From assembly GCA_003003615.1 (NCBI GenBank), contig PVWD01000030.1, positions 1 through 36,755 on the forward strand: a stretch of DNA of 36,755 nucleotides, given 5' to 3'. The stretch's first letter is position 1; every line of letters begins with the position of its first letter. The translations under genes and the position numbers were made by a program. Origin of the DNA: a filamentous cyanobacterium CCP2. GTDB taxonomy: Bacteria > Cyanobacteriota > Cyanobacteriia > Elainellales > Elainellaceae. Below are positions 3,562 to 36,471 of this stretch, in pieces. Under the pieces are notes generated by a model, which saw only the letters and a list, made by a program, of their open reading frames with translations, was not told the origin of the DNA and did no database searches.

Positions 3562-4797
3562 TTAAGAAATGAGATGTGTGCCATTCATTTCCCATTTGTG
3601 AGGGGGATGGAGAATACTGCTATCAGATGTAGGTTGAACAAACAAGGAGTAGACATGCCAATGATAGTCATAGGCATAAGCCCAACTTCTCTCATGTATT
3701 CCCACATCTACAAAATAAACTCCACCACTCAGATCCAACCGATCGAGGGACAAAGTTACTCTTCCATTTCTGTGAATTTCTGGCAAATGAACTCCTGCAT
3801 TTACAGTATTAGTCTCAAAACAAACTTGCCCATCTTCTCGGCTAATCGCAACGCTAAAGATAGGAGATTGAATGAGTTGATTGGTGCAGTAATCAATCTC
3901 AATTTTTAGAAATGTGCCACTATGAATAATGTCCGAGGGCAATAAACGAACATCTGTAATTTCAACTTCTAAAGAACCAAATCGATTTCGGTTGACCTCT
4001 AGCTCAATACCCGATCGCGTTGTTTGAGGAGGTCTTACTGGCGTTCGTCGCAACGTTTCTGTATGCATCTCGCTTTTGTATTGACCCGCGATAACTTTTG
4101 GATCTCCATAGGCAGCAACTCGTCCCTGTTTTAGCCAAAGGGCCCGATCGCACAGTTTTTCCACTTGACTGGCATCATGGGAAATTAAGACGATCGCACA
4201 ACCATTTTGCTTGAGTTCAGCAATCCGATTCAGGCATTTGGTTTGAAACGCCAAATCTCCAACGGATAAAAACTCATCGACTAACAACACATTTGGATTT
4301 GTGTGAACTGCAACCGAAAATGCTAAGCGCATCTGCATTCCGGTGCTGTAGGTGCGAACTGGATTATCAATAAATGGTTCTAGCTCAGCAAATGCCACAA
4401 TCTGATCAAACCGTCTTGCCACTTCACGGCGGGTCAGTCCAGCCACGATCGCGGTGACAAAGACATTCTCTCGTCCGGTGAGATCGCCATGAAAGCCAGC
4501 CCCTAAATCGAGCAGTGCCCCAATTCTGCCACTCACCCGAACTTGCCCTTCATCCGGTTGTCCAACTCCTCCAACTAACTGTAACAGGGTAGATTTACCC
4601 GCTCCATTGTGACCTATAACCCCAAGCATTTCCCCCGAAGCAACAGTAAAGTCAATGTGACGCAGTGCCCAGAATTGTTCCTTGGGCTGCATTTTTCGTA
4701 AGCCAGACAGCGCTGCTTCCATGATGGTGACAGGCTTCTCAGCGTGATAGCGATTAAAAAATTTGCCAAGGTTATGCACAACGATTGCATCACCCAT
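3562..4797 (-). CDS. wzt: Polysaccharide ABC exporter ATPase, Wzt type with C-terminal glycan-binding domain
   Basis: The ATP-hydrolysing subunit of an ABC-2 exporter that carries a lipid-linked glycan across the inner membrane. In 411 residues it shows Walker A GHNGAGKS at 62-69, the family-typical GRIGALLDLGAGFH at about 90-103, signature YSTGMQMRL at 150-158, Walker B LLVDE at 171-175 and switch histidine 207. After residue 240 a separate domain of about 165 residues, rich in beta strands, matches the placement of the Wzt C-terminal domain, which in known systems recognises the modified chain end. Its ATG follows the permease stop directly (TAGATG), so the two are translationally coupled. 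Identification is firm; the C-domain ligand is unknown. Confidence 0.93.
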   Translation of the reverse strand: MGDAIVVHNLGKFFNRYHAEKPVTIMEAALSGLRKMQPKEQFWALRHIDFTVASGEMLGVIGHNGAGKSTLLQLVGGVGQPDEGQVRVSGRIGALLDLGAGFHGDLTGRENVFVTAIVAGLTRREVARRFDQIVAFAELEPFIDNPVRTYSTGMQMRLAFSVAVHTNPNVLLVDEFLSVGDLAFQTKCLNRIAELKQNGCAIVLISHDASQVEKLCDRALWLKQGRVAAYGDPKVIAGQYKSEMHTETLRRTPVRPPQTTRSGIELEVNRNRFGSLEVEITDVRLLPSDIIHSGTFLKIEIDYCTNQLIQSPIFSVAISREDGQVCFETNTVNAGVHLPEIHRNGRVTLSLDRLDLSGGVYFVDVGIHERSWAYAYDYHWHVYSLFVQPTSDSSILHPPHKWEMNGTHLIS

Positions 4798-5598
4798 CTA
4801 CAACTCCTCCACAAAACGATGGCTCTGCCGTTGAAAAACTTTTATCCCGATTGGTAAAACCACTAGCGTTCCCATTGCAATCCAGAACAGCGCAAACCAG
4901 TTAGGTTGAACACCGTCAATTAAAATTGCTCGGTAGGCTGAAACGAAATGCACTATCGGATTAGCAAAATATAAAGTTTGATAAGTGGATGGAATATTGC
5001 CAATGGCATAGAAGATTGGTGTTATGTAAAACAGCAATTGCAGAAGAACACCAAGAGTATGCTGTGTATCTCGAAAGGTGACGTTCAGTGCAGCAAAAAA
5101 GTAGGACAAGCTGACTGTAAATGCGAATTGAATAATCTGTAGAACGGGCAGAAATAGAATTACAGATTGTAGTTGAACTCCATCAATTAAAAGAAAAATA
5201 ATGAGGACGGGTAAAGCAAAAGTAAAGTGAACTAAACCAGTGGATACGGTTACGATAGGCAAAATAGCATTAGGAAATCCAGGTTGCCGAATCAAAGCAC
5301 GATTGCCAATGATAGCTCCTGCTGATTGGAACAGTGAACTTTGAAACCAAGTCCAAACGAGCAAACCTGTAAAAACAAACGAAGAATACTGAGGAACGTC
5401 GATCGGCAAAATCACCTGAAATACAAAGACAAACACGGCAAGCTGTAACAGCGGATTGATCAACGTCCAGGCTACTCCTAGAAACGATCGCTTGTAGAGC
5501 AGCTTCATTTCACGAGAAACTAATTCACGCAGGAGATCATAGAGGTAGACCCACTGCCGCTTAAATGGAGAAAATTGCTTTTTTCGGCTGGTCAGCAT
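4798..5598 (-). CDS. wzm: Polysaccharide ABC exporter permease, Wzm type (ABC-2)
   Basis: A 266-residue inner-membrane protein with about six hydrophobic segments, the usual length and form of Wzm/KpsM/TagG permeases. The N-terminal amphipathic stretch LLRELVSREMKLLYKRSFLG is typical of the cytoplasmic interface helix that contacts the ATPase, and ALNVTFRDTQH followed by the ITPIFYAI segment is characteristic of ABC-2 exporters. It pairs with the next gene, wzt, without a spacer, and follows the double glycosyltransferase gene by 9 bases. Together the pair would export a finished glycan to the periplasm. Confidence is high for the family. Confidence 0.93.
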   Translation of the reverse strand: MLTSRKKQFSPFKRQWVYLYDLLRELVSREMKLLYKRSFLGVAWTLINPLLQLAVFVFVFQVILPIDVPQYSSFVFTGLLVWTWFQSSLFQSAGAIIGNRALIRQPGFPNAILPIVTVSTGLVHFTFALPVLIIFLLIDGVQLQSVILFLPVLQIIQFAFTVSLSYFFAALNVTFRDTQHTLGVLLQLLFYITPIFYAIGNIPSTYQTLYFANPIVHFVSAYRAILIDGVQPNWFALFWIAMGTLVVLPIGIKVFQRQSHRFVEEL

Positions 5599-20095: not shown

Positions 20096-21163
20096 ATGTC
20101 TTCATCTCGTTCCGATCAAGACTCACCCTGGAAAGATATTTTGCGCCAATATTTTCAGGAAGCGATCGAGTTTTTCTTCCCCCAAACGGCAAATCGTATT
20201 GATTGGAGCCGTTCCTACGAGTTTTTAGATAAAGAGTTTCAGCAAATTGCTCCAGATGCAGAAATTGGTAAACGCTATGCAGATTTACTCGCTAAAGTCT
20301 GGCTAAGGCAAGGACAAGAATTATGGTTGTTAGTACATACCGAAATTCAAGCCAGTCCTGAGGCTCAGTTCGCTGAACGAATGCTAACCTACCACCTACG
20401 AATTTTTGACCGATTCCACAGCCACGCTACCAGCCTGTCTATTCTCTGCGATGGCAATACCAAATGGCGACCCAATCGTTACTCCTTTAACAGTCCTGAT
20501 ACTGAACTTACCTTTCGATTTAGCATGGTCAAATTATTGGACTACCGTGATCGGTGGTTGGAACTCGAACAAAGCCATAATCCATTTGCCGTAGTTGTTA
20601 TGGCACATCTAAAAAATCAAGAAACGCGAAGAGATTCCAACCGCCGTAAAGATTGGAAGCTGAGCCTGATTCGACAGCTGTATGAGAAGGGTTATGCACG
20701 GCAGGAAATTTTGAACCTGTTTCGCTTTATTGACTGGGTTATGATCTTACCAGAAGGCTTAAGCCAATCATTTTGGCAAGAGTTGAAAGCTTACGAGGAG
20801 GAACGACACATGCCCTATATTAGCAGCGTTGAGCGGATTGGATTTGCAGAAGGAATGAAACGAGGGATAGAGGAAGGAGTCAAGCAGGGCATTGAGCAGG
20901 GCATTGAGCAGGGCATTGAGCAGGGCATTGAGCAGGGCATTGAGCAGGGCATTGAGCAGGGCATTGAGCAAGGTGTTCGGCGGGAGGCCCGATCGCTTGC
21001 TTTGAGGCTCCTCACCCGTCGAGTTAAGAACTTACCTGATTCAGCCCGATCGCAAATTGATATGCTCACGCTTTCGCAACTAGAAGCATTGTGTGAAGCG
21101 GTAATGGATTTTACTAGTCTGTCCGATCTGGAGGCATGGCTGGCTCAACAGAATGCATCCTAA
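20096..21163 (+). CDS. Rpn-type PD-(D/E)XK nuclease/putative transposase with DUF4351 tail and GIEQ repeats
   Basis: A 355-residue protein and the only plus-strand gene in the window. The N-terminal part matches the Rpn (recombination-promoting nuclease) or YhgA-like group: YADLLAKV with D63, then LLVHTEIQAS with E83 and Q85, the D...E-x-Q form of the PD-(D/E)XK site. After residue 230 comes a helical linker with seven perfect GIEQ repeats (265-292), then REARSLALRLLTRR and DLEAWL, a DUF4351-type C-terminus. Such genes are abundant and mobile-looking in cyanobacteria and are thought to act on DNA. It sits between two glycosyltransferase genes; its TAA overlaps the TAG of the convergent GT2 gene within CTAA (21160-21163). 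No flanking inverted repeats were seen. Confidence 0.88.
   Translation: MSSSRSDQDSPWKDILRQYFQEAIEFFFPQTANRIDWSRSYEFLDKEFQQIAPDAEIGKRYADLLAKVWLRQGQELWLLVHTEIQASPEAQFAERMLTYHLRIFDRFHSHATSLSILCDGNTKWRPNRYSFNSPDTELTFRFSMVKLLDYRDRWLELEQSHNPFAVVVMAHLKNQETRRDSNRRKDWKLSLIRQLYEKGYARQEILNLFRFIDWVMILPEGLSQSFWQELKAYEEERHMPYISSVERIGFAEGMKRGIEEGVKQGIEQGIEQGIEQGIEQGIEQGIEQGIEQGVRREARSLALRLLTRRVKNLPDSARSQIDMLTLSQLEALCEAVMDFTSLSDLEAWLAQQNAS
20888..20971 (+). repeat. Seven tandem 12-bp repeats inside the nuclease gene
   Basis: The unit GGCATTGAGCAG is repeated seven times with only the last base of the last unit changed. It keeps the reading frame and encodes Gly-Ile-Glu-Gln seven times. Perfect identity suggests recent expansion by slippage. 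Changes in copy number alter the protein by four residues per unit without breaking the frame. Confidence 0.95.
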
Positions 21164-23154: not shown

Positions 23155-23964
23155 TCAATTGATATTTGTACAGTAACTCTGAAGCTTGGTGCAACACTTT
23201 TCAAAAGTATTCAAAGCTCCATCCAATAATTCTGGCTTAATTTCCAATAATGGAGAATGGCGATCTCTGACAATTTTTCCTTGTTTGATCACATCTGAAG
23301 GATCACCAATGCCTCTGATGCCAGCCGTTGGTAATGTTTTATATTCTTCTGAAAAAGGTTCATCCAACTTTAAAAATTGTTGAAGTGAATAAAAGGCAGA
23401 TTGTGTATTTTCTAACATTTGATCGTGCCTAATAAAAATGCTGCGATCGGGGTCAGAGATGAGTTCTGCATACTCATGCAAAGCGTTTAAGCGATCGACG
23501 TAGTAATTAGTGTAATATTGCAAAGCAGATTCTTTTTTGTCTTCGTTGTCATGCTTCCAAAGTTTTACCATGCTTGAAAGGCTTGAGTGTGGCTCTCTCA
23601 GTAGAAAGATAAAAAACAAAGAGTTGTTTTGAATTAACTCTTTACTAATACTATGCCCGTTATGTAAGATCTTATCCACAACATACTTTTCGCTGAGTTC
23701 TTTTTCCTGAAGGTTACGCTTTACTTTATACACTAACCGATCCAAATCTCTACCATTGTTATAGCTAAGGTGGGCTTCTCCATAACCACAAACATTTGGG
23801 TTTGTATTTAATAAATTCACAAACAGGGTGGAACCCGCTCTCATATGGCTGAGGATAAAAATATATTTGTAAGGTTCCGCTCTCATTTTTAAGCGCGTCA
23901 AATGGTAAGCGTAACTTACCCGATGTTGAAGAGCAGTTGTAAAACCTGTCAATTTCTCTTGCAT
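23155..23964 (-). CDS. PAPS-dependent sulfotransferase
   Basis: A 269-residue cytoplasmic enzyme of the sulfotransferase superfamily. The 5'-phosphosulfate loop is seen as SHMRAGSTLFVNLL (residues 39-52) and the 3'-phosphate site as LREPHSSLSS (122-131). It would move a sulfate group from PAPS to a hydroxyl of the glycan. Sulfated exopolysaccharides are known from cyanobacteria, so this fits its context between glycosyltransferase genes. No PAPS-forming genes are nearby; those are usually encoded elsewhere. It could alternatively act on a lipid or small molecule. Start at the ATG at 23964. Confidence 0.83.
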   Translation of the reverse strand: MQEKLTGFTTALQHRVSYAYHLTRLKMRAEPYKYIFILSHMRAGSTLFVNLLNTNPNVCGYGEAHLSYNNGRDLDRLVYKVKRNLQEKELSEKYVVDKILHNGHSISKELIQNNSLFFIFLLREPHSSLSSMVKLWKHDNEDKKESALQYYTNYYVDRLNALHEYAELISDPDRSIFIRHDQMLENTQSAFYSLQQFLKLDEPFSEEYKTLPTAGIRGIGDPSDVIKQGKIVRDRHSPLLEIKPELLDGALNTFEKCCTKLQSYCTNIN

Positions 23965-28840: not shown

Positions 28841-29824
28841 TCAAGATTTTATATATGCTTTGATTTTTCGCAGTAGGCTTTGTTGGCGGACAGCTTTGAC
28901 TTGTTGAACTTGCTGTACACTAGCAGATAAGAGATTGCGGAGTTCTTCGCCTTCATGTTTAAGACATTCACCAACATTTTGAATACGTGCCAAAATTTCG
29001 GGAGTATTTGCCTGCAAGTATTCTAGTTTGGCTGGTAAAGCCTCCACATCAAAAGCTCCTACACTCAAGTCGAGCAAATCGTTATCTTCCAACACTCGCT
29101 TTACTTTGTCATCGTACAAAATTGCGATGAAAGGAACACCGATTTGTAGGGCAAATACAATCGAGTGAAACCGCGTTCCAATTAAGTAATCACATTCATA
29201 AAGTGGGTTCACTGTAAAATCATCGGGCACATTTTCAAACTCAAGTGTATGAAAAATATCCGAATCATGTTTTGCACCAAATCGTAAGGGAAACGGCACA
29301 ATGTTTCCTATCTCACGAATGCGTTCACCCCAAACGAGCGGATCATAGCCCTGAGGATGTTTAGAAGCAAGGCTGAGAGCGATTAAACCACTATTAGGGA
29401 ATTTCTGCCTGGTAGGGTAGGGAAACATCCAGGTTAGGTCTGGCAAAACTTTCACCTTCGGGTGGTTATCTAACAGTTGATGGCTTTTCTGATCTCGCAC
29501 AACAAATAGTTCGGAGTGCTCCACCATCCACAACAAATCTGGCTTTAGGTCTTCATTTAGTTCATTAATTCCTAACCCTGCAACACCAAAGGGCTTTTTG
29601 CTTTTTGCTAACCAAGCTGTAATTTTTTCCCAGATGCCAACGCGCGTCCAAACCAAACCACCTCCGCCAATCAAAATAAAATCAAACCAATCCGTTGGCG
29701 GTGGATCTTGGTTATGAGGCAACAAGACTACCGTATGGGGATGCAATGCCCGCACTAGTGATTGTCCAAGCCGATCATCACCATAATTTAATTGGTGATA
29801 GTAGCCAAAGACTGCAATTTTCAT
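28841..29824 (-). CDS. Polysaccharide pyruvyltransferase-family protein, CsaB/WcaK-like
   Basis: A 327-residue protein of the pyruvyltransferase family. It has FGYYHQLNYGDDRLGQSLV at the start, LIGGGGLVW at about residues 52-60, VVRDQKSHQLL, DLTWMFPYP, and GTRFHSIVFALQIGVPFIAI with the catalytic-type histidine. These are the standard features of the CsaB/WcaK-type subgroup. It may add a pyruvate ketal to a sugar, as CsaB does to cell-wall glycan, or act as a related transferase. It follows the GT2 gene by 25 bases. It differs clearly in length and motifs from the other two members in this window. Confidence 0.87.
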   Translation of the reverse strand: MKIAVFGYYHQLNYGDDRLGQSLVRALHPHTVVLLPHNQDPPPTDWFDFILIGGGGLVWTRVGIWEKITAWLAKSKKPFGVAGLGINELNEDLKPDLLWMVEHSELFVVRDQKSHQLLDNHPKVKVLPDLTWMFPYPTRQKFPNSGLIALSLASKHPQGYDPLVWGERIREIGNIVPFPLRFGAKHDSDIFHTLEFENVPDDFTVNPLYECDYLIGTRFHSIVFALQIGVPFIAILYDDKVKRVLEDNDLLDLSVGAFDVEALPAKLEYLQANTPEILARIQNVGECLKHEGEELRNLLSASVQQVQQVKAVRQQSLLRKIKAYIKS

Positions 29825-29849: not shown

Positions 29850-30887
29850 TTATGCTCTAATCATGAATTGTTGAAACTGCTGAACCGATCGCTTTATGCC
29901 AATCAAAGAGTTCCAAAAACGAGATGCAGTTTGTTCACCCAGCAAAAAACCTAACAATAACCAGTAAGACTTAGCCGTAAATGGTTTTGATTGAAACGCC
30001 CGAATTAAATATTTCAAACTGGAACCATAGAATCCGGATTGTCGAGCAACTAAGCACCATTTACAATATGCTTCATAGTCTGCTGTATATTTTACTGGTG
30101 TAGCTGAATGTTTTTTTGTATTTGATTCAGAGTCCCTTCGCTCCGATAATTCTTGATACAGTTCGGGAATACTTACATCCAACTCAGCCGACGCTTTGTC
30201 GAGAATTGAGCGTCTAATTTCATTAATTCTTGCGCGGTTTCTGGTATGGGAAACGCTACCAATATGCCAGCGATATTGTAATAACCGTTCCGATAAATTT
30301 GCTAACTTGCCTTGCCTTGCTAACCTCAGAAATAAATCCACATCTTCAAAGTGATATTCCTGCACATATCCACCCACTGCCCGGACTACATCAGTTCGCA
30401 TCATTACAGTTGGGTGGCAAATGCGCGATCCTTTCCATTCGAGTAATTCTGCAACCAATTGTTCATGCTCTTGGGTAATCTCTGGCATACAAAGCACATC
30501 ATTCTCCGGATCGATGATGGTTAGAGCCGTTCCCAAAGCAACACAATTAGGATGTTTTTCTAAGTAATTGACCTGCAATTCAAACCGTTGAGGAAGAGCA
30601 ATGTCATCACCATCCATCCTGGCAATGTATTTACCTTTTACAAGTTCCACACCCTTTTGCAAGGTTTTACACAGCCCCATATTGGAATGATGATGAACCT
30701 GAATTCGTGCATCCTGTTGAGCAAACTCTTTGGCAATATTTAAGCTACCATCCGTTGAGCCATCGTCTAGAAGTAACAACTCAAAATTGGAATAAGTTTG
30801 TTGCAAAATGCTTTGAATAGCAGATTTCAAATACTTTTCGCTGTTATAGAAAGGCAACAGGACAGATACCAGAGGAGAATTGCTCAT
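29850..30887 (-). CDS. GT2 glycosyltransferase
   Basis: A 345-residue GT-A enzyme with VSVLLPFYNSEKYL, LLLDDGSTDGSL, the metal site RMDGDDIALPQR, CHPTVMMR, and FEDVDLFLRLARQGKL. The DGDD-type motif and the CHPTVM segment are common in GT2 enzymes of capsule and O-antigen clusters. About 90 C-terminal residues form helices (AYCKWCLVARQSGFYGSSLKYL). It lies 58 bases after the sialyltransferase-like gene, so it may act next to the nonulosonate module. The donor sugar is unknown. Confidence 0.92.
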   Translation of the reverse strand: MSNSPLVSVLLPFYNSEKYLKSAIQSILQQTYSNFELLLLDDGSTDGSLNIAKEFAQQDARIQVHHHSNMGLCKTLQKGVELVKGKYIARMDGDDIALPQRFELQVNYLEKHPNCVALGTALTIIDPENDVLCMPEITQEHEQLVAELLEWKGSRICHPTVMMRTDVVRAVGGYVQEYHFEDVDLFLRLARQGKLANLSERLLQYRWHIGSVSHTRNRARINEIRRSILDKASAELDVSIPELYQELSERRDSESNTKKHSATPVKYTADYEAYCKWCLVARQSGFYGSSLKYLIRAFQSKPFTAKSYWLLLGFLLGEQTASRFWNSLIGIKRSVQQFQQFMIRA

Positions 30888-30945: not shown

Positions 30946-32085
30946 CTAAACTGCTTCTTCAATGATAGACAGTGTTAGCTCAGATAGCTGCCGAAAATCG
31001 CCCTTGAGAAAATCCAATAGGGGTCTAACACAAGTTACAGTCTTAATGCCAAAAATCTGCTTCATGTAAAAGAGCGAACTACTCAAGGTTGAACCACACA
31101 AATCAATGTTGCTTTCTGCAACAATTACTTCGATCGGCAATTTTTGCTCATTAGACAGATAAACAAAATTATCCAGTTCTACAATTTCCTGAATGTCCTC
31201 AAATAAGGGCTTTTGGTTGCGGGGATGCTCTTTCCAAAGAATCGTATATCCTTGCTCATTGAGCCTCCGAATGGTATCAGCGAAAACTTCAACTTCTCGC
31301 TCTCTAGGGAAGGATTGTAAATGGCTCAGGTTCGACCCTAAGAGTAATGCTGTTTTTGAATTACTCGGAGTATCTGCCAACCGAGATTCGCACTGAAGGC
31401 GATGATTTAGATCAACAAAAAACGATCGCAGCAAATCTGGTTCAACAAATTCAATCGGCACCTTCTGCAAAGTTGACGGAATAGGAATTTGCGTCCCAAG
31501 AACCGAATAAACTTTTTTAATTCGGCGCAAATGGGAACGCTTCACCCCTTCATGCTGCCAATCAATTCTGTGGGATATAACCTCGCCAAATAAGTGTTTG
31601 TATCCAGATAGAGTCTTTCTCAGATTAGACCAATCGATCGGCGGTGAATGAATTAAGTAACTTGTTGGTGCATAGGTGTGCAGCCCATCTTCATAGATGA
31701 CGATCGCCGCTTTAGAGAAAATATCGGCACATAATCTTTCATCGCGAAACTGGATTTTACAGAGCCAAACTTCATCCACTGTCGCTGGGCTGTTTAGGTG
31801 GAAGGATTGCAGGATTTGCTGAACGGGAAGATGATCCGCTTTATTCTGTTGAGGATTCCAATCTGCGGTTGTCCAGTCAACTTGAATCACGCCATCCCAA
31901 TTCCAGAAAGCATCACAAATCGTTTTAACAAACTCTACAAGCTTAGTGTTTGCAGTTTTGCGAGAATAAAGCACCAGATAATCTTGATACTTTACCTCTG
32001 GATGTTTGGCTCTTTCCTGTAAAAAGGCAGCCGCAACCATGCAAAGCTGCCAGATACCATTGACAAAAACTAATCGTGTTTTCAT
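30946..32085 (-). CDS. Polysialyltransferase-like enzyme (putative CMP-nonulosonate transferase)
   Basis: A 379-residue GT-B-like protein without clear membrane segments. It carries three motifs of bacterial sialyltransferases (families GT38, GT52, GT80): an acidic-acidic-Gly site, YEDG at residues 131-134; an HP motif, KEHPR at 285-289; and a Ser-rich motif, GSTLSSSLFY at 331-340. The opening RLVFVNGIWQL also resembles the alpha-2,8-polysialyltransferase family (PF07388). Its ATG is two bases after the stop of the NeuB fusion, and neuA is in the same run, so the donor is probably the CMP-nonulosonate made by those two. It could add a single residue or build a polymer. The motif match is by eye and needs a profile search. 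Confidence 0.75.
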   Translation of the reverse strand: MKTRLVFVNGIWQLCMVAAAFLQERAKHPEVKYQDYLVLYSRKTANTKLVEFVKTICDAFWNWDGVIQVDWTTADWNPQQNKADHLPVQQILQSFHLNSPATVDEVWLCKIQFRDERLCADIFSKAAIVIYEDGLHTYAPTSYLIHSPPIDWSNLRKTLSGYKHLFGEVISHRIDWQHEGVKRSHLRRIKKVYSVLGTQIPIPSTLQKVPIEFVEPDLLRSFFVDLNHRLQCESRLADTPSNSKTALLLGSNLSHLQSFPREREVEVFADTIRRLNEQGYTILWKEHPRNQKPLFEDIQEIVELDNFVYLSNEQKLPIEVIVAESNIDLCGSTLSSSLFYMKQIFGIKTVTCVRPLLDFLKGDFRQLSELTLSIIEEAV

Positions 32086-32087
32086 GC

Positions 32088-34334
32088 TTAAAACACTTTC
32101 TCTAACCGTTCTAGGGCAATCCAGAACCCTTCCCCTTCATTCTTATGCCCCTGCCAAATTTCGGGAATAAATGAAGCTTTAGGTGCTGTTTTATCTAAGT
32201 CCTCAGCCAGGGCAGGAAAATCAATTTCCCCCTCGCCAATTTGCAGCCCTTCACCATCAATACCCTGGGCATCCGCAATGTGCAGGTGAGCGGTATAAAG
32301 CCCAATCTGCTCCACAAACTCCTTAAATGACCACTTGTGATGGGTACAGGCTAGCTTGGAGTGGGACACATCCAGACAGACCCGGTAGCCATTGGTGCGG
32401 CAAAATTCTGCCGTGTCTTGGGGATCAACAAACAGATTGTGGTGTCTTTGTCCACCAAAGTGCCAGGGAAAAGGCGGCATTGTTTGGGGAATGATTTCTA
32501 CCCCTTCCATATCAAGCTGCGCCAGACTGTCGAGCAGCAGTTCGTATAGCTTGCCTCGATCCGAAAGTGGTAAGGGAGCATCAATGGTAAAACCGCCCAC
32601 ATTCGTCACAATGCAGGGACGATCGGTTTTTTGAAAGAAGGGTTTCAGTTGGCGCGTTAAGTCAATCACCCGTTGCAGTTCTGCAATGGAATGCTGCCGA
32701 TAGTTTGGATCGGGTGAACACAAATCCAGCAAGTGATCACCAGCAAATAACTCTGGGCTGTGAACCACAAAATCCAGGTCGTAGGGGCGATCGAAGAATT
32801 GGTTAATGTCCTGCTCCAGGTCTTTGTAACTGAGGTGAAATTCCAGCAGATCTGGATTCGTCTTTTGCAACAGTCCTTGGAAGTCGTGGTAGCGGACGGG
32901 AACTCCCCAAGGGCGACGGAAACGGTAAGGACGGGCTTCCACCTGCGCTACGTCTAAATCACTGGGAAAGAAGAAATCTCCTGCCTTAAAAGGTCGCTGA
33001 GCCGTTTTGCCAATGAGTTCTTGCTTACGGTTGGGTTGCAGTCCTCGTCCAGGACTTTTGACCTCAATCATGTCAGCCGTGATGACCTGCCCAACTTCCA
33101 AGTTGCAGTTGATCACTAAACTTTTTGCCAATGTCTCCCGATTCATCAGTTCACCCTGGCTAAGACGGCGTTCTGCACTGCTGCCCATTGATAATTCAAC
33201 TTGGCGAATCCCCTCTATCATTTGACGAAACTCGTGGGGCAGGAGGCTGACCTTGTGGTCATTGCCTTCCATTGATTTGTCAAGCGTGAAGTGCTTTTCA
33301 ATCACCTTTGCACCTCGCGCTACAGAAGCGATCGCCACATGAATTCCGCGTTCGTGACCAGAGTAACCCACTGGACAATCACCTAATTCCTTCAGCCGAT
33401 CGAGGTAGTTCAGATTTACATCCTTAAAGGGTGCAGGATAGGTGGAATTGCAGTGTAATAGTACGTACATTGCTCCTAACCGTTGTAGGAGTCGAGCCGA
33501 TTCAGCAATTTCTGCTTCAGTGGACATTCCCGTAGAGCAAAGAAGCGGCTTACCTGTTTTCGCCAGAGCCGTCAACAGTTCATGGTTCGTCAAATCCGCA
33601 GAAGCAACTTTATACGCTTCCATGCCGTAAGACTCTAGCGCAGCAAGACTTTCCACATCCCAAGGAGTGCAGAGCGGTAAGATATTTTGCGCCTTGCAGT
33701 AGTCGAAAATGGCAATCATTTCATCGGGCGTGAGTTGGAATCGGCTCAACAAATCCAGGGTGTACTGTGAACCCAAATCCTCGCTAGCATCATTGGCATT
33801 ACCCGCATTGTGATATAGCGTTTTGAGATCCCGCATTTGAAATTTGGCGCAGTCCGCTCCCGCAGCAACCGCTTCATCTACTAGCCGTTTTGCTAACTCC
33901 AGGCTGCCATTATGATTGTTGCCAATTTCTGCAATTACAAAGGTCGGAGAGTGGGCATCGATCGTGAAGTTGCCAATCCGAATACCATCAGGTCTGCGAC
34001 GGGCGATCGCGACTAAGTGGCGGTTTTGATCCAGTAAAGGAATAAACTCAATTTCGTTAGAAAAACAAGCCTGAATTTTTTCTGGATCATCTGTATGGTG
34101 AGCAAACTTATAGTGTTTGTTTGTGATTCGCGAAACCGGCTGATTCAGGTTAATGGTTTCCTGTTGGGTCAACCAGCGGCGAAAGTCACCATCGGTCAAA
34201 ACGCCTTCCAGTTCACCGGATTCAGTGACGGAGAAAATGATCCGGCTTTTGTTGTCACTGATCTTTTTGAGCGCGTTGATGATGTCGTCTTCAGCAAAGA
34301 CGATGTATTTAGAAAGGTTTTTTTCGATGATCAT
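32088..34334 (-). CDS. neuB: Four-part NeuB fusion: CBS pair, nonulosonate synthase, SAF domain, TIM-barrel sugar isomerase-like domain
   Basis: A 748-residue cytoplasmic protein. Residues 1-118 look like a CBS pair (GVLTDGDFRRWL near 44-55). Residues 125-375 are the NeuB barrel, which condenses phosphoenolpyruvate with an N-acyl sugar: FVIAEIGNNHNGS, CTPWDVESL, YKVASAD, LCSTGMS, LLHCNSTYP, GYSGHERG, EKHFTLD. Residues 400-462 are the SAF (antifreeze-like) lid: KSLVINCNLEVGQ, SPGRGL, GKTAQRPFKAGD. Residues 470-748 resemble xylose-isomerase-like or AP-endonuclease-2 barrels, with likely metal ligands in VEII, CLDVSH, HLHIAD and FIPEIW. Typical NeuB is about 340-350 residues, so this is twice the size. 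The ATG overlaps the neuA stop (ATGA). The last domain might remodel the sugar substrate; that is inference. Confidence 0.88.
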   Translation of the reverse strand: MIIEKNLSKYIVFAEDDIINALKKISDNKSRIIFSVTESGELEGVLTDGDFRRWLTQQETINLNQPVSRITNKHYKFAHHTDDPEKIQACFSNEIEFIPLLDQNRHLVAIARRRPDGIRIGNFTIDAHSPTFVIAEIGNNHNGSLELAKRLVDEAVAAGADCAKFQMRDLKTLYHNAGNANDASEDLGSQYTLDLLSRFQLTPDEMIAIFDYCKAQNILPLCTPWDVESLAALESYGMEAYKVASADLTNHELLTALAKTGKPLLCSTGMSTEAEIAESARLLQRLGAMYVLLHCNSTYPAPFKDVNLNYLDRLKELGDCPVGYSGHERGIHVAIASVARGAKVIEKHFTLDKSMEGNDHKVSLLPHEFRQMIEGIRQVELSMGSSAERRLSQGELMNRETLAKSLVINCNLEVGQVITADMIEVKSPGRGLQPNRKQELIGKTAQRPFKAGDFFFPSDLDVAQVEARPYRFRRPWGVPVRYHDFQGLLQKTNPDLLEFHLSYKDLEQDINQFFDRPYDLDFVVHSPELFAGDHLLDLCSPDPNYRQHSIAELQRVIDLTRQLKPFFQKTDRPCIVTNVGGFTIDAPLPLSDRGKLYELLLDSLAQLDMEGVEIIPQTMPPFPWHFGGQRHHNLFVDPQDTAEFCRTNGYRVCLDVSHSKLACTHHKWSFKEFVEQIGLYTAHLHIADAQGIDGEGLQIGEGEIDFPALAEDLDKTAPKASFIPEIWQGHKNEGEGFWIALERLEKVF

Positions 34335-35014
34335 ACGGATTGGGGTTGCTTGCTCAGTAGGAATTCAATGTATTCAAAGTCAGCGATCGAATCAATTTCC
34401 CAGCTTTGTTCTTCTGACATCTCATAAAGGGAAATTTTGCCACCCAAACGGTTGTTTAGTTCCTTCAGCACCCAGGGTTTGAAGACGTAAATCGAACCGT
34501 TCTCCATATACTGCGGGTTCATATCCTGACGGCGTTTCCGATTACGGTAATCATAATTAATCGACGTAGCACCGCCATCCACCCGTTCCCAGATAAACCG
34601 ATGGTTTGGTGAAACAGATAAAAGTGAATCTGAATTTTCATCCCGCAGTTGAGAAATTGCCTGATCGATATCCGTTCCGCTTCGCAGGGGAGAGGTACAC
34701 TGTAGAAATACAATCAGTTCGGGCATCACCCCGGCTTGTTCAATTTCATTCACCGCATGAATTAGTGCTGATTCCGACGATGCAGTATCCCCTGCCAACT
34801 CTGCAGGACGATGAATAATCTCTGCACCGTACTGGACAGACACTTCAGCAATGGCAGGATCATCTGTGGATACATAAACACGATCGACCCGTTGCGATTC
34901 GGTACAGTCTTGTATGGAGTGGGCAATCAGAGGAAGTCCGGCTAACGAACGAATGTTTTTACCCGGAACGCCCTTGGAGCCGCCACGAGCAGGGATGATA
35001 GCGATAGTAGTCAC
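34331..35014 (-). CDS. neuA: CMP-nonulosonate (acylneuraminate) cytidylyltransferase
   Basis: An enzyme of about 227 residues that activates a nonulosonic acid with CTP. It opens with TTIAIIPARGGSKGVPGKNI, the CTP-binding signature of NeuA and KdsB-type enzymes, and has HSIQDCTES, VYVSTDDPAIAEV, LQCTSPLR and a late NGSIYVFKPW. I choose the GTG at 35014, because it gives the usual short family N-terminus; a TTG at 35035 would add seven residues. It overlaps neuB by 4 bases. The real substrate may be sialic, legionaminic or pseudaminic acid; the sequence alone does not decide. Identification of the family is firm. Confidence 0.92.
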   Translation of the reverse strand: MTTIAIIPARGGSKGVPGKNIRSLAGLPLIAHSIQDCTESQRVDRVYVSTDDPAIAEVSVQYGAEIIHRPAELAGDTASSESALIHAVNEIEQAGVMPELIVFLQCTSPLRSGTDIDQAISQLRDENSDSLLSVSPNHRFIWERVDGGATSINYDYRNRKRRQDMNPQYMENGSIYVFKPWVLKELNNRLGGKISLYEMSEEQSWEIDSIADFEYIEFLLSKQPQSV

Positions 35015-35040
35015 GTTAGTTTCAGTGAAGAGCAAAGGGA

Positions 35041-36357
35041 TCAGGCAGCAGTGCTGGTTGTCAAAGATTCTAAATAACGCACATTCTTCTGTGCAAGTTT
35101 AGACAACTCTTCAGCCCGATCGCGCAGTTGTTGACGCAGTGGTTCTCCTTGTTCCAGGTAATGCTTTGCTAAATCCACAACATCCGACGCAATTTCATGC
35201 AAATTGAGAGCATCCAGAGTTGGCGTTTCTAGCCCCATTTGCTGCACCAATGCCTGAGTTTTGTAAGTATTTGCAGTAAAAGTAATGATGGGGGTTCCAC
35301 CCGTCAAAGCCAGGATGCTGGGATGCCATCTGCCGCTAACATACACACTTGCATTTCCCAGAATATCCACTGCCTGCTGGGTGGGGGTGGTTAAGGAAAT
35401 TAGCGGCAAACCCAATGCTTTGGCGATCGGACGAAAAATTAGTTCATCTTTTGGATCGGGTGCGGTCAACACAACCGGAGCCACGTAATTTTGCAGTTTC
35501 TCACACAGAACCTTAAAACCAGGAATGGGATCATACGCTGGACGATCGCCCCTTAGGTAAATAGAACTACCGCCAATGCAGATGTAAGGACGAGATGGGT
35601 CAAAACCAGAAGCCGAGTCTGGATGAATGCTAAAGTAGCTATCGCGGGCAGCCAAAGCAGAGAATGTAGCGCGATCGATGGGTCTGTAGGTGAATGCTGC
35701 ATCTGCCGCCAAAACCGAATTATCTTCTCTGACAAACGCTTGACAGGCTTCTGCAGAGAGAGGCTCTCGAAAAATGACATCATCCAGTAAGGGGTAAACC
35801 TGAGCCACCATTTCAGCCATCACCGGATCATGCACATCGGCTGTATGATTTGCCAAAACGCAAGGCTTATTAAAATGTACCTTTGCCAAATAGGCAATAA
35901 ACAGCATCATCCGCCCTTTACGTTGGCGATCGTAAATACTACCTTCTCCGTTAATAAAAACTAAGTCACATGCTTCTAAGGCTGCCCGTTCCGGCTGCAT
36001 CACTTCCCCAGCTAACACTTTGCTGGCAAATGAAGGAAACTCTGCAAAAGAAGTGGGCATTGCATCTCTAACATTTGCTATTTTTTTCCAATGGGGAGCC
36101 ACCCAACGAGAGTTCACATAGTTAGCAAGACTTTTACCCGCAGGAAAAGTTCCAACTACAGATGAGGTAAGCTTTTCTATTTTCTTATATCTTTTTTCAA
36201 TATATCTATCCGTTGCCGACATCCGCTTTAAGTAGAGCGTATGAGTAATTTCGTAAGAAGGATTATGCAGGGAAAGCATTCTTTTTAATGCGGCTGTTGT
36301 TGCTCTGCATCCCCAATTGGGGCAATCTGAAGTATCATTTACAAAAAATATCTTCAT
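35041..36357 (-). CDS. Polysaccharide pyruvyltransferase-family protein, long form
   Basis: A protein of about 438 residues, the longest of three pyruvyltransferase-family members here. It begins MKIFFVNDTSDCPNWGCRATT and has FINGEGSIYDRQRKG, FREPLSAEACQ, AADAAFTYRP, and SGRWHPSILALTGGTPIITF with the conserved histidine near the C-terminus. A basic insertion near residues 40-100 sets it apart. I start at the ATG at 36357, preceded by GAGGGAAAC; an ATG four codons earlier is possible. It is the first gene of the nonulosonate module, ending 26 bases before the chosen neuA start. It may pyruvylate a sugar next to the nonulosonate or have a different related activity. Confidence 0.85.
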   Translation of the reverse strand: MKIFFVNDTSDCPNWGCRATTAALKRMLSLHNPSYEITHTLYLKRMSATDRYIEKRYKKIEKLTSSVVGTFPAGKSLANYVNSRWVAPHWKKIANVRDAMPTSFAEFPSFASKVLAGEVMQPERAALEACDLVFINGEGSIYDRQRKGRMMLFIAYLAKVHFNKPCVLANHTADVHDPVMAEMVAQVYPLLDDVIFREPLSAEACQAFVREDNSVLAADAAFTYRPIDRATFSALAARDSYFSIHPDSASGFDPSRPYICIGGSSIYLRGDRPAYDPIPGFKVLCEKLQNYVAPVVLTAPDPKDELIFRPIAKALGLPLISLTTPTQQAVDILGNASVYVSGRWHPSILALTGGTPIITFTANTYKTQALVQQMGLETPTLDALNLHEIASDVVDLAKHYLEQGEPLRQQLRDRAEELSKLAQKNVRYLESLTTSTAA

Positions 36358-36471
36358 CGTTTCCCTCATTCAATTCGTCCTTAAGTTTTAGGTTCACTCA
36401 GGCAGTTGGCATAAGCTCAATTCATCAGAATGAATCAGCCTTAAAAGTGAAAAATTCTTCAGCACACCTGC

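Follow-up and report, generated by a model that had tools for sequence, protein, structure and literature searches.

The question raised by this locus is which sugar, if any, is transferred by the product of a gene lying beside a neuB-like open reading frame in the filamentous cyanobacterium CCP2 (assembly GCA_003003615.1). The window, meaning the whole stretch of DNA analysed, covers positions 1 to 36,755 of contig PVWD01000030.1. An original prediction made from the sequence had proposed a polysialyltransferase-like enzyme, here called P0001, at 30946-32085; these coordinates proved exact, with the gene on the minus strand and the plus strand carrying stops throughout the interval. The residues on which that proposal was built were checked singly and are all present where they had been placed (Y131 E132 D133 G134; K285 E286 H287 P288 R289; S335 S336 S337), and the gene does directly follow neuB, as only 2 bases separate the stop of the 748-aa neuB-like frame (32088-34334) from the P0001 start. 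The genes needed for the argument are the following.

30946..32085, minus strand: P0001, a PF07388 transferase of 379 aa (open reading frame and Pfam match)
32088..34334, minus strand: P0002, a CBS-NeuB-SAF-xylose-isomerase-like TIM barrel fusion of 748 aa, predicted Kdn synthase (Pfam, alignment)
34331..35035, minus strand: CMP-nonulosonate synthetase, CTP_transf_3, PseF-like at 129 bits against a PseF cut-off of 205.7

The family to which P0001 belongs is given by its Pfam profile. PF07388 (alpha-2,8-polysialyltransferase) was its only Pfam-A match at E ≤ 1, with 240.1 bits (E 5.8e-71) against a curated cut-off of 23.3 bits and with profile positions 1-316 of 316 covered, which is far beyond chance; NCBIfam returned nothing for P0001. 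Sialyltransferase families GT52, GT80 and GT97, which had also been put forward for comparison, gave no match, insofar as they have a Pfam model. The NeuS protein of E. coli K1 matches the same profile at 152 bits, lower than P0001, so the family includes a true polysialyltransferase, and NeuS in turn retrieves the solved Mannheimia polysialyltransferase (MhPST, 5wc6/5wcn) at 1.6e-38 in a PDB sequence search. Direct similarity of P0001 to a characterised GT38 member was not found by BLASTP, PDB searches or profile comparison: BLASTP gave no recognisable pairwise similarity to NeuS (E 0.22), identity to NeuS is about 17% in a multiple alignment, and profile-profile comparison with hhalign gave a probability of 66% (71 columns) when 11 sequences were used and of 11% with three. 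Searching the PDB with the P0001 sequence yielded no GT38 chain and no credible match, the weak hits obtained (E 0.15 and worse) looking like chance, and searching with its alignment yielded nothing. With these pairwise and profile-profile signals weak or absent, the Pfam profile is the main homology link and the correspondence of individual residues the second.

This correspondence concerns residues of the active site. In all three MAFFT modes, Q44, E152, E153, G154, K289 and H291 of MhPST align with Q13, E132, D133, G134, K285 and H287 of P0001, and P292, K293, E323, S339 and T340 with P288, R289, E319, S335 and S336; the MhPST residues Gln41 and Arg259 are not kept, being replaced by Gly and Leu. 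The residue roles used for this mapping are those reported for MhPST (PMC5517516). Both motifs described for GT38, D/E-D/E-G and HP (PMC2169525), are found in P0001 as E132 D133 G134 and H287 P288, and the Lys, His, Glu, Ser and Thr contacts to CMP in the solved enzyme recur as K285, H287, E319, S335 and S336, with Ser replacing Thr. A loose version of the motif ([DE][DE]G, then HP, then SS, in the order originally proposed) appeared in 85 of 100,000 shuffles of P0001; with the spacing of the Mannheimia enzyme (K-x-H-P, Glu 32 residues after the His and S-[ST] 48 after it) it appeared in 0 of 100,000. The corresponding positions are listed below.

31075..31083, minus strand: SSS 335-337, with Ser335/Ser336 as predicted phosphate contacts (MhPST Ser339/Thr340; alignment)
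31129..31131, minus strand: Glu319, predicted ribose contact (MhPST Glu323; alignment)
31219..31233, minus strand: KEHPR 285-289, in which Lys285 is predicted to contact cytosine and His287 to serve phosphate and leaving group, Arg289 replacing the MhPST acceptor residue Lys293 (alignment; roles from PMC5517516)
31684..31695, minus strand: YEDG 131-134, with Asp133 as predicted catalytic base (MhPST Glu153; alignment)
32047..32049, minus strand: Gln13, corresponding to MhPST Gln44, with a possible part in activating the catalytic base (alignment; role from PMC5517516)

A predicted mechanism follows the same lines. The C-terminal domain of P0001 would bind CMP through Lys285, His287-Pro288, Glu319 and Ser335/336, Asp133, aided by Gln13, would take the proton from the acceptor hydroxyl, and this hydroxyl would attack the donor sugar at C2, with His287 stabilising the departing CMP. 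The C-terminal domain of retaining Kdo transferases contains a QxxxD nucleophile (PMC12887879). P0001 has one QxxxD, in its N-terminal half (residue 80), and none in its C-terminal half; together with the placement of Asp133 in the EDG loop, this suggests that P0001 should invert. The fold would be GT-B, as judged from homology. It is highly probable that P0001 is a CMP-ulosonate transferase. That it is instead a divergent GT-B protein using another nucleotide sugar might be argued from its poor AlphaFold2 model, which was built on two sequences (P0001 and its relative L002) and has a mean pLDDT of 43, and from the missing direct BLASTP link, but such a reading is very improbable, given that the residues contacting cytosine, ribose and phosphate are all conserved and that a CMP-sugar synthetase lies in the same cluster in three genomes.

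Which ulosonic acid is transferred cannot be read off the Pfam name, as becomes clear from the distribution of the family. Among 388 cyanobacterial genomes, P0001-like proteins (60-63% identical) occur in three, its own included, and PF07388 in 15. The fusion neighbours the P0001-like gene in all three genomes: the two are 2 bases apart in the window and adjacent in G107, and in G122 they lie on two contigs whose ends overlap by 72 bases. A strong NeuB (>270 bits) is encoded in five of the 15 PF07388 genomes (G000, G107, G122, G055 and G198), and the other ten have partial NeuB matches only, of 29-46 bits. A CMP-Kdo synthetase (kdsB) over cut-off was detected in 11 of the 15, namely those ten and G198; G000, G107, G122 and G055 have none over cut-off. 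On a tree of 20 PF07388 proteins, P0001 and its G122 and G107 counterparts group together at 99/99 and join two Sinorhizobium proteins at 85/90, and the Kdo-linked proteins separate at 80/93, with the fork drawn open and P0001 outside. The prevalence of kdsB without a true NeuB, combined with this split, means that the Pfam name alone does not imply sialic acid. The original description of P0001 as polysialyltransferase-like thus stands as regards its family, its GT38 catalytic and CMP-binding residues and its nonulosonate-synthesis neighbours, but the name itself overstates the case, since ten of the 15 genomes encode a CMP-Kdo synthetase but lack a true NeuB.

For most cyanobacterial PF07388 genes the neighbourhood in fact suggests Kdo, and a Kdo donor for P0001 could be proposed by extension from the 11 genomes with kdsB over cut-off and from G077, where kdsB adjoins the PF07388 gene along with a SIS-CBS isomerase. 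This is nevertheless highly improbable for P0001 itself, which does not group with the Kdo-linked proteins in the phylogeny and whose own genome gives a best kdsB match of 35 bits against a cut-off of 155.2, that match being the CMP synthetase of the window. The G077 cluster (L074, 6872-13790) deserves separate mention: its PF07388 gene, strong CMP-sugar synthetase (197 bits) and SIS-CBS isomerase are probably a CMP-Kdo set, in a genome with no true NeuB.

The relatives outside this core are of uneven quality. The PF07388 protein of G055 (L063) was dropped as a relative, matching at 26 bits over 85 residues, having no D/E-D/E-G by regular-expression search and sitting on a branch of length 5.9. 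The Sinorhizobium relatives match PF07388 at 61-63 bits with no clear K/R-x-HP at the expected place, and their support for the PF07388 picture is weak. One of them, in S. meliloti RCAM1750 p_2 (L102, 8719-9960; 61 bits), is recorded as a hypothetical protein and not annotated as a transferase, within a capsule-type locus that also encodes an acylneuraminate cytidylyltransferase and RkpR. Viral contigs, scanned three times for further relatives, yielded none.

The identity of the donor is approached through the fused synthase P0002. Full-length fusions were found in 28 of the 388 cyanobacterial genomes, its own included, with one more truncated (G182), against 102 genomes having a NeuB-like match at 1e-30. 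An alignment of these 29 fusions to the NeuB of N. meningitidis and to a PseI showed the NeuB residues E25, K53, Y186, H215, H236 and D247 to be kept, but Arg314 was Ser in 29/29 and E134 was Asp in 29/29. It is reported that the N-acetyl group of ManNAc is contacted by Arg314 and that replacing this residue by Ala abolishes activity (PMC6795526). In P0002 the replacement is located as follows.

33054..33056, minus strand: Ser427 of P0002, at the place of Arg314 of N. meningitidis NeuB (alignment)

Stand-alone cyanobacterial NeuBs, of which 20 were hand-picked from the list of NeuB-like matches, have Arg at this place in 19 cases and Asp for E134 in five; the fusions are related among themselves and the stand-alone enzymes likewise, so that these counts are not independent events. 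The one stand-alone NeuB with Ser (L089, in G330) may represent a second, unfused, non-N-acyl lineage. A rhizobial plasmid, Ensifer canadensis pT173e, encodes a CMP synthetase together with the complete fusion (57.6%), again having Ser at the Arg314 place; E. coli genomes searched for a DNA match to the fusion gave none.

A rival reading takes P0001 for a true sialyl- or polysialyltransferase, with CMP-Neu5Ac, CMP-legionaminate or CMP-pseudaminate as donor. It is favoured by the PF07388 name and the active-site residues, by the best solved-structure match of the NeuB part of P0002, which is a pseudaminic acid synthase, by the CMP synthetase being nearest to PseF, and by Serratia, which made about 1 Neu5Ac per 20 KDN (PMC9000132). 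The same proteins nonetheless fall short of the respective family models, the NeuB part reaching 323.7 bits where TIGR03569 (N-acetylneuraminate synthase) requires 399.65, and the synthetase 129 against 205.7 for PseF; Arg314 is Ser in every fusion, Arg259 of MhPST has become Leu in P0001, and neither NeuC nor PseG exceeds its cut-off. In the own assembly, whose sole strong NeuB is the fusion, the best NeuC match has 86 bits against 235.9 and the best PseG match 18 against 153.55, an absence that could be an assembly gap, the assembly being 96.87% complete and the contig ending just upstream of the cluster; PseC-like aminotransferases are present, at scores below cut-off (275 and 216 against 423.5). 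A sialyltransferase in this strict sense is therefore unlikely, and the donors first suggested, CMP-Neu5Ac and CMP-legionaminate, find no support in a locus whose fused synthase has no N-acetyl arginine and whose genome has no NeuC/LegG-type protein or PseG over cut-off.

Kdn, a relative of sialic acid that contains no nitrogen, is the alternative to which these observations point, a precedent being available in Serratia marcescens. The NeuB of its KL1/KL2 capsule loci was cloned as a 2241-bp piece including 9 bp upstream (PMC9000132), corresponding to a protein of about 743 aa, and KDN and Neu5Ac were reported at about 20:1, both dependent on the locus, with neuB required for sialic acid (PMC9000132; follow-up PMC12077157). 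From the fusion without the N-acetyl arginine, the lack of NeuC and PseG over cut-off and this precedent, a Kdn-type donor appears reasonably likely, granted that P0001 is a CMP-ulosonate transferase; Neu5Ac, legionaminate and pseudaminate are each improbable as the donor. The fusion would condense PEP with a hexose that is not N-acylated, and its product would be activated to CMP-Kdn by the PseF-like enzyme, both enzymes being encoded by the two genes immediately upstream of P0001. A search of the open-access literature turned up neither a Kdn transferase nor Kdn synthesis in cyanobacteria; what the retrieved texts offer is mention of a kps-like cluster in Synechococcus (PMC7522525) and a metabolomics call of neuraminic acid in Nostoc flagelliforme (PMC6562405).

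The gene following the fusion varies between genomes. Fifteen same-strand genes 3′ of the fusion were considered (one by BLAST and 14 by Pfam, about 8 more being left out), and the idea that this gene always encodes a CMP-sugar transferase was rejected: one was PF07388, two were MptE-like over cut-off and two below, and one was Capsule_synth, the others being methyltransferases, a sulfotransferase, an ATPase, a transporter, a weak GT1 match or unmatched. The MptE-like (PF01973) proteins, directly behind the fused NeuB in L045, L049, L050 and L051, belong to a family that includes the Maf flagellin nonulosonate transferases, and they may be alternative Kdn transferases. In G240 (L053, 3636-5513) a 626-aa Capsule_synth protein (PF05159) follows the fusion; the Kdo transferases KpsC and KpsS belong to this family. 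Directly upstream of the fused NeuB, G339 (L059, 8371-12037) and f2 genomes like it encode three DUF6716 proteins in tandem, with no match to the window-type CMP synthetase in that stretch; NeuE of E. coli K1 matches the same Pfam family.

The nature of the product can be judged from the remainder of the cluster, whose relevant members are given here.

3562..4797, minus strand: Wzt ATPase with C-terminal domain (Wzt_C; profile match)
4798..5598, minus strand: Wzm-type ABC-2 permease (profile match)
23155..23964, minus strand: sulfotransferase of the P0001 cluster (profile match)
28841..29824, minus strand: polysaccharide pyruvyl transferase, a conserved neighbour (Pfam; loci of the relatives)
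29850..30887, minus strand: GT2 glycosyltransferase, in the same place in the loci of both close relatives
35041..36369, minus strand: pyruvyl-transferase-like protein upstream of the CMP synthetase (Pfam)

The cluster includes GT2 and GT4 transferases, three pyruvyl-transferase-like genes and a sulfotransferase, with Wzm/Wzt at the far end. The order PF07388 gene, GT2, pyruvyl transferase is kept in G107 and G122, and the CMP-sugar synthetase shares a cluster with the P0001-like gene in all three genomes. With many other glycosyltransferases in the cluster, a heteropolysaccharide is the more likely product, and one or a few Kdn residues per repeat are considered likely rather than a long homopolymer. 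A polymerase building long Kdn chains, as NeuS does with Neu5Ac, would agree with the polymerising relatives in PF07388 and with Arg289 in place of the MhPST acceptor residue Lys293; it is improbable here, as the additional glycosyl-, pyruvyl- and sulfotransferases fit a heteropolysaccharide and no NeuE-type (DUF6716) protein was detected among the 30 window ORFs scanned.

P0001 would accordingly place Kdn into a heteropolysaccharide that is exported via Wzm/Wzt and is probably pyruvylated or sulfated, an export route and decoration suggested by gene content. The decoration has a parallel in Promicromonospora, where a pyruvylated Kdn polymer also carrying sulfated glucose has been described (PMC6801904). 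A Wzm/Wzt pair lies upstream in G107 as well, a separate observation; that the module always accompanies Wzm/Wzt was rejected, since among 28 loci compared by BLAST with the window pair both genes occurred in three and Wzt alone in three more, two of them weak. The polysaccharide cluster is interrupted by a plus-strand DUF4351/Transposase_31-like frame at 20096-21163 of the window, with 76% identity in G122 (L034).

Taken together, P0001 is best read as a GT-B, inverting, GT38-like PF07388 transferase that uses CMP-Kdn and feeds an exported heteropolysaccharide, at a probability of roughly 0.6. A broader proposal is put forward tentatively, at somewhat less than even odds: PF07388 could be a general family of CMP-ulosonate transferases whose sugar is set by the adjacent synthase (Kdo with kdsB, Kdn with the fusion, Neu5Ac in the classical capsule pathogens), with P0001 as a Kdn transferase and the fusion as a Kdn synthase complete in itself, producing the hexose that it consumes and spread among cyanobacteria, small f2 genomes (2.3-2.9 Mb) among them. 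If so, a family named for the polysialic-acid capsules of pathogens would have free-living photosynthetic members acting on other ulosonic acids, automatic naming as polysialyltransferase would mislead, and the route to Kdn in cyanobacterial envelopes would be a two-gene module without NeuC. PF07388 enzymes would then be tools for making Kdn glycans, and Ser or Arg in the SAF domain would, if biochemistry agrees, be a sequence marker separating non-acylated from N-acylated nonulosonates.

Among known systems, the Serratia KL1/KL2 loci resemble the window in combining a CMP synthetase with a long NeuB that has a sugar isomerase/epimerase domain, within a capsule cluster (PMC9000132), a likeness to P0002 that rests on reported length and domain; unlike for the P0001 locus, the terms polysialyltransferase and sialyltransferase are absent from the Serratia text (PMC9000132). 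The GT38 enzymes (E. coli K1 NeuS and Mannheimia haemolytica SiaD/PST, 5wc6 and 5wcn) share with P0001 the Pfam family, as tested for NeuS, the D/E-D/E-G and K-x-H-P motifs, the Glu and Ser/Thr nucleotide contacts and the His-Glu and His-Ser spacing of MhPST, but differ in the approximately 17% identity of NeuS, in Gln41 and Arg259, lost from P0001, and in the other type of synthase beside it. The kdsB-linked cyanobacterial clade has the family, K-P-H-P-R, the Asp base, the Glu and Ser-Ser in common with P0001, whereas it mostly carries GDG for EDG, has kdsB in the genome and forms a separate group on the tree, with no NeuB match over 46 bits in its ten kdsB-only genomes. Finally, the retaining Kdo transferases GT99, GT107 and GT140 bind CMP at a (K/R)-x-H-P site in their C-terminal Rossmann domain (PMC12887879), which is reminiscent of P0001; these enzymes employ the QxxxD nucleophile, whereas the predicted base of P0001 sits in the EDG loop.
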